Part shown: positions 131-4,429 of the stretch, one piece after another
How the letters are laid out: the number at the start of each line of letters is the position of its first letter
Numbering within the stretch: position 1 is the stretch's first letter
Assembly: GCA_018830405.1 (NCBI GenBank)
Contig: JAHJSF010000051.1
Coordinates: 1-6,033 of the forward strand
DNA: 6,033 nt
Direction: 5' to 3'
Origin: Nitrospinota bacterium
GTDB taxonomy: Bacteria > Nitrospinota > Nitrospinia > UBA9942 > JAHJSF01
Made by a program: the position numbers and the translations under genes
Notes under the pieces: generated by a model
Told to the model about the DNA's origin: nothing
Database searches by the model: none
Seen by the model: only the letters and a program-made list of their open reading frames with translations

Positions 131-1288
131 TTAGGAGTTCCGGCTTATAATGTCTACAATTAAGCCCTGCTCCGCCTCAGTTAAATAGGGGTGCATCGGC
201 AGACTGAATATCCTGTCGGAACAGTCTTCACTGACCGGGAAATCGCCCAATTTATACCCCAAAGACTCAAAGGCGGTCTGCATATTGAGCGGTTTAGGAT
301 AGTAGACAGCCGAAGGAATCCCCTTCTCCTGCAGGGCCGCACGTATCTTGGTACGCTGTTCGTTATTATCGGCCAGTATGGAGTATTGGGCCCAGGCACT
401 CTTATACCCCTCGGGGATATAAGGAGTGTTAAGGCCTTTGATGCCGGCCAAAAGCTCTGTATATTTTTGGGCAACCTTCTGCCTAAGTTCAACCTCATCC
501 TCAAAAATGTCGAACTTGGCCAACAATACGGCTGCCTGTATCGTATCGAAACGTCCATTCATCCCTATTATGACATTGTCATACTGGCTTTTCCCCGTCC
601 CATGTATGCTGGCTGAAAACATAAGGTCGGCCTTGGCCTTATCATCAGTAAAACACATCCCCCCGTCCCCGTAACAGCCTAGTGGTTTGGCCGGGAAAAA
701 TGAGGTGCAGCCGATATCTCCCAGGGAACAGGCCTTTCTCCCCTTATACTCTCCCCCCATAGATTGAGCCGCATCCTCAAGAAGGAATAACTTCTCTCTC
801 TCGGTTATCTCTCTTATAGCGTCGTAGTCGGCACAGAGTCCAAAGAGGTCAACAGGGATAACCCCTTTTAGGGTTAAAGAGGCATGATTAACCGGTAAGG
901 CCACGCTATTATTTTTCCCTTTAAAAGCGGCAATTGTCTCCTCGAGTTTAACCGGGTCGATATTAAATGTCTTTAGGTCGATATCAACAAAGATAGGGGT
1001 TGCCCCAAGGAGACTGGCCGCCTCGGCGGTGGCGATAAAGGTAAAAGGGGTTGTCAGAATGGCATCACCCGGGCCTATTCCGTAGGCCATAAGGGCCAGG
1101 ACAAGGGCATCTGTTCCGGATGAACAGGCCAGGGCATACTTTGAGCCGACATAGGCTGCCAGTCGCTCTTCCACCTCTTTATTTTCCGGTCCTAAAATAT
1201 ATTTCCCATGACTCAGAACATTGGCAATACGTGTATCAATATTTTCTTTTATTCTTTTTTGCTGAGAAGCAAGATCAACAAACTGCAT
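131..1288 (-). CDS. DegT/DnrJ/EryC1/StrS family sugar aminotransferase, WbpE-like
   Basis: This is a cytosolic PLP-dependent aminotransferase of 385 residues, expected to transfer an amino group from glutamate to a keto group of a nucleotide-linked sugar for O-antigen, capsule or glycan synthesis. Visible family motifs in order: SSGTDAL (56-62, PLP phosphate contact), EDAAQS (171-176, Asp172 to the pyridine nitrogen), SFFPAKPLGCYGDGG (196-210) with the Schiff-base lysine at 201, and GMNGRFDTIQAA (242-253). From memory the sequence tracks Pseudomonas WbpE (UDP-3-keto-GlcNAcA C3 aminotransferase) almost end to end, including the N-terminal FVDL..QQ.RIK, YILGPE and the C-terminal LPMHPYL. About 17 extra residues lie near 121-141. 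The ATG at 1288 follows AAGGAA (1295-1300) at good spacing. No dehydrogenase or acetyltransferase of the Wbp pathway is visible, so the exact substrate is inferred, not shown. Family confidence is very high; WbpE activity is moderate. Confidence 0.95.
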   Translation of the reverse strand: MQFVDLASQQKRIKENIDTRIANVLSHGKYILGPENKEVEERLAAYVGSKYALACSSGTDALVLALMAYGIGPGDAILTTPFTFIATAEAASLLGATPIFVDIDLKTFNIDPVKLEETIAAFKGKNNSVALPVNHASLTLKGVIPVDLFGLCADYDAIREITEREKLFLLEDAAQSMGGEYKGRKACSLGDIGCTSFFPAKPLGCYGDGGMCFTDDKAKADLMFSASIHGTGKSQYDNVIIGMNGRFDTIQAAVLLAKFDIFEDEVELRQKVAQKYTELLAGIKGLNTPYIPEGYKSAWAQYSILADNNEQRTKIRAALQEKGIPSAVYYPKPLNMQTAFESLGYKLGDFPVSEDCSDRIFSLPMHPYLTEAEQGLIVDIISRNS

Positions 1289-1441: not shown

Positions 1442-1915
1442 ATGATTAAAAAACCAAAATATCTGCTACTGTTATTATCTCTGGCCACCATCGCTATACT
1501 TTCCGCTGTAGTCATACCGGCCAAAGCGGGCACAAAGGAGATGAAGTTTTATAGTGTAAAAAAACAGGCCCCCGAATTTATACACCATTACAAATCAATT
1601 ACCCTTACCAAAGAAGAGGAGGCCATTAAGGTAGACGCCCTGTCCAAACTGCAGGCCCCCTGCTGCAAAGATAATAGTGCCCTAACCTGCTGCTGCCCCT
1701 GTAATCTGGCTAAAACAACCTGGGGCTTGACCAATCTCCTGATAAGGGAATACAAATACACCGCGCCGCAAATAAGAAAGGCCGTAACCGAATGGGTAAA
1801 ATTCACCAACAAGGATGGTTACAAAGGGGATGCCTGTTATACAGGGAGATGCGGCCTCCCCTTTGAAAAGGATGGCTGCGGCGGGATGGGGGAGAAACTC
1901 ATTTTAGGTTCCTAA
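1442..1915 (+). CDS. Small exported cysteine-rich protein of unknown function
   Basis: The product has 157 residues. A Sec signal peptide is clear: basic MIKKPKY, a hydrophobic run at about 8-25, then AKA|G, predicting cleavage between 29 and 30. The mature part starts with a polar, lysine-rich stretch, then carries nine cysteines: CC at 74-75, CCCPC at 83-87, and single cysteines at 132, 137 and 146. The last three lie in a CYTGRCGLPF...GCGGM context. A helical, charged segment at about 91-125 separates the two clusters. There is no lipobox, so the protein should be periplasmic or secreted. The cluster recalls exported PCYCGC-type cysteine proteins, but I cannot name the family firmly. Metal binding or a thiol redox role is inference from the cysteines alone. 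Translation is strongly supported by AGGAGG (1431-1436) five bases before the ATG. The gene stands alone on the plus strand, is divergent from the aminotransferase, and ends 12 bp from the convergent radical SAM gene with no terminator between them. Confidence 0.9.
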   Translation: MIKKPKYLLLLLSLATIAILSAVVIPAKAGTKEMKFYSVKKQAPEFIHHYKSITLTKEEEAIKVDALSKLQAPCCKDNSALTCCCPCNLAKTTWGLTNLLIREYKYTAPQIRKAVTEWVKFTNKDGYKGDACYTGRCGLPFEKDGCGGMGEKLILGS

Positions 1916-3037: not shown

Positions 3038-3658
3038 TTATTTAAGCGGCTGCTCTCTATTGTAGCCGTCAGCCAAGCTTGTGTTTACATGGACAACGCC
3101 CGCATTCAATTTCTTGAAGGGGTAGGAGTCTGTAATTACCGGCAAGGCATCAGCATCGGCCTGGCTACTAAGAACGGTACCCATCGGGACATAACGACCG
3201 TCAGGAACCTTAACTCCGAGAAGTGTACATCCCGGCTCGACAACACAATTGCTGCCAACCTCAGCTTTGAATACAAGAACCTGCATGCCGATAAAGGAAT
3301 CATTACCAACCTTAGCCGGTCCGTGAACCTGTGACTGGTGAGCCATGGAAACCCTTTTACCAACATAAACGGAACACTCAGTACCGTCCGGGGCTGTAAC
3401 ACGGTTAGCTGTGGGCTTTCCGTGGGACTCTGTCTCTAGACCGTGTATAACACAGCCGTCCTGGACATTGGATTCATCATCAACTATAACAGCCTGTCCC
3501 TCGTCACCACGTACGGAGGCACAAGGGCTGATGAGGACTCTCTTGCCGATCTTAGCACACCCACCGCAGAAACCGAGCGGATGAACATATGCAGTAGGAT
3601 CGACATTAGGAGTGCAAACCTTCGGAGTAAAATCTGTAACAACACTATTTGCTATCAT
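3038..3658 (-). CDS. cam: Gamma-class carbonic anhydrase, Cam subclass
   Basis: The enzyme interconverts CO2 and bicarbonate at a metal site shared between subunits of a left-handed beta-helix trimer. The 206 residues align along their whole length with mature Methanosarcina thermophila Cam as I remember it. Metal ligands His72, His107 and His112 correspond to Cam His81, 117 and 122, in VIHGLET and MAHQSQVHGPA. Arg50, Asp52 and Glu53 (SVRGDEG) match Arg59, Asp61 and Glu62; Asn64 and Gln66 match Asn73 and Gln75; Glu75 matches the proton-shuttle Glu84; and Asn192 (VVHVN) is also kept. The presence of Glu75 and the loop after it separates this from the shorter CamH proteins and suggests an active enzyme. 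No signal peptide is present, so it should be cytosolic, unlike M. thermophila Cam. It has eight cysteines, including a CGGC pair (31-34), which is unusual. The ATG at 3658 follows GGAGG (3668-3672) by nine bases. It lies 35 bp behind the DUF1275 gene and ends in a strong terminator. Valine is coded mostly by GTT (20 of 30), which suggests high expression. Confidence 0.95.
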   Translation of the reverse strand: MIANSVVTDFTPKVCTPNVDPTAYVHPLGFCGGCAKIGKRVLISPCASVRGDEGQAVIVDDESNVQDGCVIHGLETESHGKPTANRVTAPDGTECSVYVGKRVSMAHQSQVHGPAKVGNDSFIGMQVLVFKAEVGSNCVVEPGCTLLGVKVPDGRYVPMGTVLSSQADADALPVITDSYPFKKLNAGVVHVNTSLADGYNREQPLK

Positions 3659-3693
3659 GCTTTAAAACCTCCAATTAACGATAAAGAATTGTT

Positions 3694-4332
3694 CTACTTC
3701 AACGGTATATCAACCGTTACCTTTTGTATAATCGCCACTAAAAGTACACCTACTCCGCCTACACCAAGTGCCATAGGAGCAGTCTCTGCGGTAAACGACG
3801 TAAGAGCCATATACGCACCGAGTGGGAAACCAATCCATCTAAGCAACCAGAATACAAAGAGATTCCAGTTACCCAAGGCTAGGTTTGTTCCGATATCCGT
3901 AGCAGGACCCGTAAGGTGGGTGGTCCTGTTTATAGGAGTTGCACTTGAGGAGGCATTCTGACAACCCATAGCCATGGGAATCAGTATCGCTAATATTGTT
4001 CTTCCGGCATCCGGTCCCAACATCCAAGCCGCTATAATTACCAATGCAGCAGTGAATGTTAATCCACCTGACAATCCGAAAGCCTTTGTTAGCTTTGTGC
4101 CGATAGCCGCGCCTATGATAAAGGCAACAACTATCATGATGATGACCCAGCCCTCTGACGGGTTACCAACACTGAAATTCATACCAATGTTGGAAGCTCG
4201 ACCAGTCATAAATGCCGATCTCTCTTTGAAGAACCACTTCACTCCTACAACGTCAATCCAACCAGCAAGAGCAATCAGAAAAAAACCTACGATGTTTACG
4301 CCTGTAAAGACTTCAACCTTCTGTTCAGCCAT
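3694..4332 (-). CDS. DUF1275 (YoaK-like) polytopic membrane protein
   Basis: This 212-residue inner-membrane protein has about six or seven hydrophobic segments, at roughly 11-31, 62-80, 89-105, 112-126, 156-178 and 185-203. Family marks are AGWIDVVG (23-30), SAFMTGRASNIG (39-50), the FIIGAAIG segment (71-78), MAMGCQNASSSATPINRTTHLTG (120-142) and GFPLGAYMAL (168-177). All fit the DUF1275/YoaK pattern with its two TG signatures. The two halves carry a recognisable repeat (41-57 and 139-155), which suggests a duplicated fold typical of transporters or channels. No substrate is established for the family. Here it is the first gene of an operon with a cytosolic gamma carbonic anhydrase, so transport of CO2/bicarbonate, or of a small carboxylate whose metabolism releases CO2, is an inference from context. 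The ATG at 4332 is preceded by AGGGGGTG (4338-4345), and by a sigma70-like promoter 36-64 bp upstream. Confidence 0.85.
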   Translation of the reverse strand: MAEQKVEVFTGVNIVGFFLIALAGWIDVVGVKWFFKERSAFMTGRASNIGMNFSVGNPSEGWVIIMIVVAFIIGAAIGTKLTKAFGLSGGLTFTAALVIIAAWMLGPDAGRTILAILIPMAMGCQNASSSATPINRTTHLTGPATDIGTNLALGNWNLFVFWLLRWIGFPLGAYMALTSFTAETAPMALGVGGVGVLLVAIIQKVTVDIPLK

Positions 4333-4367
4333 TTTTTCACCCCCTTTCGGTTAGTTCTTTTTTTGCC

Positions 4368-4396
4368 ATTTAATCCCATTAACAGGTTTAAGTCAA
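4368..4396 (-). promoter_or_regulatory. Sigma70-like promoter of the DUF1275-cam operon
   Basis: On the minus strand TTGACT (4391-4396) and TTAAAT (4368-4373) are separated by exactly 17 nt. The first matches five and the second four of six consensus positions. The transcript would begin near 4361 and carry a leader of about 30 nt with a purine-rich ribosome site. This sits in the 97-bp gap after cysS. I found no terminator hairpin in that gap, so read-through from cysS may add to expression. Confidence 0.55.
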
Positions 4397-4429
4397 GTAA
4401 AAAATGGTATCTACAACGCCTACATTGAG

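Follow-up and report, generated by a model that had tools for sequence, protein, structure and literature searches.

Members of the DUF1275 (YoaK) family are widespread and have no known substrate, and to our knowledge none of them has a demonstrated transport activity. According to TCDB (9.B.143), the family is uncharacterised and is a relative of MFS proteins, specifically of their six-helix half (PMC7778945). In Methanosarcina, the gamma carbonic anhydrase Cam is proposed to act outside the membrane, hydrating CO2 and so either providing AceP with protons for the symport of acetate or removing CO2 (PMC7399021, PMC4500148). No link between the DUF1275/YoaK family and carbonic anhydrase was found in the literature searched. 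Methanosarcina acetivorans gives matches to both PF06912 and NF040597 and thus has both families.

The window analysed here is one entire contig of 6033 bp from a MAG of 1.42 Mb (87% complete), and its features are collected in Table 1. A gene for a DUF1275-type membrane protein is followed after 35 bp by a cam gene, and both minus-strand ORFs lie where an earlier note on this DNA had placed them. A search against Rfam found the window free of known RNA families. The 157-aa protein had no match in Pfam, NCBIfam or PHROG; it may bind a metal. Mis-binning of the contig is unlikely, because it agrees with the genome in GC content and tetranucleotides (its distance is 0.082, compared with 0.064-0.103 for other contigs) and because the only full cysS detected in that genome lies on it.

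Table 1. Features of the 6033-bp window, in descending order of position
Feature	Position	Strand	Basis or remark
cysS	5857-4430	-	directly upstream of the DUF1275 gene, same strand
cysS-DUF1275 gap, 97 bp, with Shine-Dalgarno-like AAAGGGGGTG and weak promoter-like pair TTGACT-17-TTAAAT	4333-4429	-	by eye
DUF1275 (YoaK-type) six-helix membrane protein gene, 212 aa	4332-3694	-	ORF and Pfam
DUF1275-cam gap, 35 bp, with cam ribosome-binding site TTGGAGG	3659-3693	-	sequence inspection
Cam-type gamma carbonic anhydrase gene, 206 aa, complete	3658-3038	-	ORF, profile and PDB matches
Rho-independent terminator: 13-bp stem, 6-nt loop, then T run	3015-2984	-	closes the unit 3' of cam
AmmeMemoRadiSam-type radical SAM gene	2914-1928	-	TIGR04337, 325.7 bits (cut-off 220)
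157-aa protein with hydrophobic leader and clustered cysteines (PCCKD, CCCPC)	1442-1915	+	ORF
DegT/DnrJ/EryC1-type sugar aminotransferase gene (degT)	131-1288	-	PF01041

The carbonic anhydrase matches the Cam structures of Methanosarcina thermophila (PDB ID: 3ou9, 1qrf, and 1thj) with an E-value of 7e-67 and about 52% identity over 199 columns. In the alignment, the metal-ligand residues His81, His117, and His122 of Cam correspond to H72, H107, and H112 of the window enzyme, while the Cam-type residues Glu62, Glu84, Asn73, Gln75, and Asn202 correspond to E53, E75, N64, Q66, and N192. Equivalents of R59, D61, E62, N73, Q75, D76, H81, E84, H117, H122, and N202 are all kept, so that the two enzymes share the three metal histidines, the proton-shuttle Glu84, Asn73, Gln75, Arg59, and Asn202, and the active site is intact. 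The window enzyme differs in having Phe for Trp19 and His for Tyr200; the aligned PDB chain is itself altered at position 19, and the source for Trp19 is a published title (Zimmerman et al. 2013, as cited in PMC7399021). The enzyme is not filed under the NCBIfam equivalog for carbonic anhydrase, NF040597, since its 270-272 bits are below the curated cut-off of 380. Judged by its residues and PDB matches, it is a Cam-subclass gamma carbonic anhydrase with predicted CO2 hydration activity. A second, ordinary gamma carbonic anhydrase-like hexapeptide protein of 167 aa is encoded at another locus of the same genome (L090, 4635-5138), in a housekeeping-type gene neighbourhood.

Unlike the archetype, the window Cam has no export signal, which is a property of the archetype and not a catalytic criterion. 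An in-frame stop just before the start region makes a leader impossible, and the enzyme is probably cytoplasmic, as it lacks a signal peptide. Seven of the nine other Cams found (L081-L084, L086, L088, and L089, from Clostridia-type genomes and two genomes of the same phylum) belong to the same enzyme family and, in contrast to the window enzyme, have an N-terminal lipobox leader and no DUF1275 gene nearby; the window Cam is 54-55% identical to the two from its own phylum. A leaderless Cam is not unique to the window, because the remaining two (L085 and L087) also show no clear lipobox.

The DUF1275 protein matches PF06912 with 55.7 bits (gathering cut-off 25.4) over profile positions 2-192 of 193. 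It shares with the DUF1275/YoaK family (TCDB 9.B.143) this full-length match above the cut-off, the predicted helical membrane character and an RTTHLTG-type motif. It differs in belonging to a distinct, rare subfamily, as judged from its motifs (AGWID, MTGR, MAMGCQNA, and RTTHLTGPATDIG) and from the drop in bit scores, from about 200-390 within the subfamily to about 65-87 for the next DUF1275 proteins. Its subfamily relatives are about 40-50% identical and occur in Tissierellales-type genomes, and the plasmid and viral collections contained no relative of the protein. In an alignment of 21 DUF1275 proteins, the two halves proved homologous (hhalign probability 95%, score 47; the highest score among 100 block shuffles was 21.6). 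The family thus has an internal repeat of 3+3 helices, and each half contains a motif of the R..H.TG type: R-V-S-H-M-T-G-R in the first and R-T-T-H-L-T-G-x-x-T-D-x-G in the second. Within the window's subfamily, the histidine of the first-half motif is lost or replaced (SAFMTGR). No mention of this duplication was found in the literature on the family, as far as the excerpts of it extend. Two three-helix repeats would suggest an inverted-repeat membrane protein, a kind common among channels and carriers. An AlphaFold model built from three sequences was too poor for testing such a fold (mean pLDDT 50) and was for that reason left out of the fold search.

Several features argue that the two genes form one unit. 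Strong Shine-Dalgarno-like sequences lie 5' of both (AAAGGGGGTG for DUF1275 and TTGGAGG for cam), and the strong terminator that the earlier note had placed after cam was confirmed, with a fold energy of -24.3 kcal/mol (z -6.3) equalled by none of 200 shuffles. Taken with the spacing and the unusual codon usage common to the genes, these sites make a two-gene operon a well-supported prediction. The further proposal of a self-contained unit with its own promoter stood in part: spacing and terminator agree with it, whereas the promoter is weaker than had been claimed. A consensus scan gave no match within the 97-bp gap behind cysS, promoter-like matches in the window were as frequent as in shuffles, and the pair TTGACT-17-TTAAAT is a weak guess made by eye. 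Because of this promoter, co-transcription of DUF1275 and cam can only be presumed. The same gap leaves room for a single cysS-DUF1275-cam transcript in which the pair would have no promoter of its own, an arrangement compatible with any functional reading of the pair. The shared strand, the short distance and the negative scan fit such read-through; nevertheless, the weak promoter-like pair and the ordinary codons of cysS (64-84th percentile, while the pair lies mostly at the top), which suggest different expression, render it rather improbable.

The codon usage of the two genes sets them apart from their surroundings. Among the gene pairs in a sample of 475 ORFs from the genome, their mutual similarity ranks at the 99th percentile. 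Measured against 1685 length-matched windows of the same genome, and with small reference sets whose genes were named by us from their own sequences, the likeness to ribosomal L1/L10/L11 usage was above 100% (rounded) of windows for DUF1275 and above 98.4% for Cam. The corresponding values were 99.8% and 100% for V-ATPase A/B/K, and for RpoB a weaker 83% for DUF1275 and still 98.8% for Cam. The flanking cysS, radical SAM gene, and degT show ordinary usage (57-78%). As the codons are of the highly expressed type and unlike those of the neighbours, both proteins are predicted to be abundant and to be expressed differently from the flanking genes. Recent transfer was considered as a cause of the odd codon usage, and the DUF1275 gene does lean to lower GC3. 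High expression is nonetheless likelier, because both genes are closer to the ribosomal or V-ATPase usage of their own genome than to that of the Clostridial genomes with DUF1275 relatives.

The distribution of the two families gives a different picture. DUF1275 was found in none of the 76 other genomes of the phylum (77 including this one), and a true Cam at high score in two of the 76, both times as a lipoprotein with no DUF1275 nearby. A scan of genome contigs with the single DUF1275 protein gave two relatives, 41-50% identical, in Clostridia-type MAGs. The search was then extended to 398 genomes in the phylum and 249 in the order of one relative, and to 391 in the class of the other. Beyond the window, the subfamily thereby came to 10-11 loci in nine Clostridia-type genomes, the range being due to one genome with two contig-end fragments that are perhaps one gene. 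The earlier note had tied this DUF1275 branch to Cam and had suggested looking for the two side by side in distant genomes; no such association emerged. Cam was adjacent to DUF1275 at none of the 10-11 loci and was found nowhere in the nine genomes, which gave only distant gamma carbonic anhydrase-like homologues (20-23 bits). Conversely, no DUF1275 gene was present within about 1-5 kb on each side of the nine other Cam loci (seven from the 398 Clostridia-type genomes and two from the own phylum). These neighbourhoods were checked in six frames, by which one Cam masked in the ORF list by a longer antisense ORF was found. Adjacency beyond near-identical genomes was likewise not seen, the pair occurring in this one genome only among those searched. 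Many MAGs are incomplete, so that single absences are weak evidence, while their consistency is stronger.

The neighbours of the subfamily genes differ nearly everywhere, with none generally conserved over the 10-11 loci. Exceptions are a duplicated locus in one genome, a flavodoxin-type gene cluster that a few loci share at a distance, and two loci with GGDEF-type signalling proteins. The duplication concerns one Tissierellaceae-type genome with two subfamily copies (L067 and L068), whose common neighbouring genes, named by eye, resemble RlmH, a methylglyoxal-synthase-like protein and a sigma-54 regulator. A neighbourhood that changes with nearly every genome is as expected for a gene moving alone. 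Together with the lack of DUF1275 in the rest of the phylum and the patchy occurrence of Cam there, it might mean that the genes were gained separately and came to stand in tandem by accident, with no functional link. Such chance adjacency is a serious rival, although a rather improbable one; against it stand the tight spacing, the terminator closing the pair and the matched codons of the highly expressed type, which the flanking genes do not share. The interpretation in the earlier note is partly supported: the two-gene unit looks real and abundant, but an association of the branch with Cam is not conserved in the genomes searched. The best reading is a lineage-specific pair, strongly expressed as far as codons predict.

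A common function of DUF1275 and Cam is possible. The best mechanistic explanation, to which we assign a probability of about 0.35, would be a lineage-specific operon for an abundant DUF1275 protein and a cytoplasmic Cam that serves its transport; it was chosen because it is the sole one saying how the pair works. The DUF1275 protein would be an inner-membrane six-helix carrier or channel built of two three-helix repeats, and might carry a carbon species or small anion, namely bicarbonate, CO2, or a monocarboxylate together with protons. Cam would interconvert CO2 and HCO3-/H+ at the inner face, feeding or draining the DUF1275 step; the coupled role is placed there because the enzyme is probably cytoplasmic. 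The Cam-AceP proposal for acetate uptake in Methanosarcina (PMC7399021) could serve as a precedent, as it also has Cam serving a membrane transporter. By the same comparison, AceP is a different protein from DUF1275, and the position of Cam outside the membrane in that proposal would speak against coupling here, where the enzyme appears cytoplasmic. Coupling is further opposed by the restriction of the pair to one genome, each gene occurring elsewhere without the other (nine genomes and nine Cam loci).

The same separate occurrence agrees with shared expression and no direct coupling, by which two abundant proteins of use under the same condition (e.g., high CO2, low pH, or carbon limitation) would have come into one operon in this lineage and the DUF1275 substrate would be unrelated to Cam. 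Both genes carry the codon signature of abundant proteins, and operons joining a gamma carbonic anhydrase to unrelated genes do exist, as reported for its cotranscription with argC in Azospirillum (title of PMC2914000). On the other hand, the identical unusual codon signature and the course of the unit from a promoter-like gap to a strong terminator suggest a dedicated unit. Shared regulation, although itself short of even odds, is at least as probable as coupling. A broader form of the coupled reading, by which DUF1275 proteins would be inverted three-helix-repeat carriers or channels and this subfamily would form with cytoplasmic Cam an abundant, previously undescribed uptake unit for bicarbonate/CO2 (or a proton-coupled carboxylate), is very doubtful.

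Being a single case, the DUF1275-Cam pair counts as a lead; it does not amount to evidence for a system. A strongly expressed pairing of DUF1275 with a carbonic anhydrase would nevertheless give a first concrete hypothesis for one branch of the DUF1275 family.
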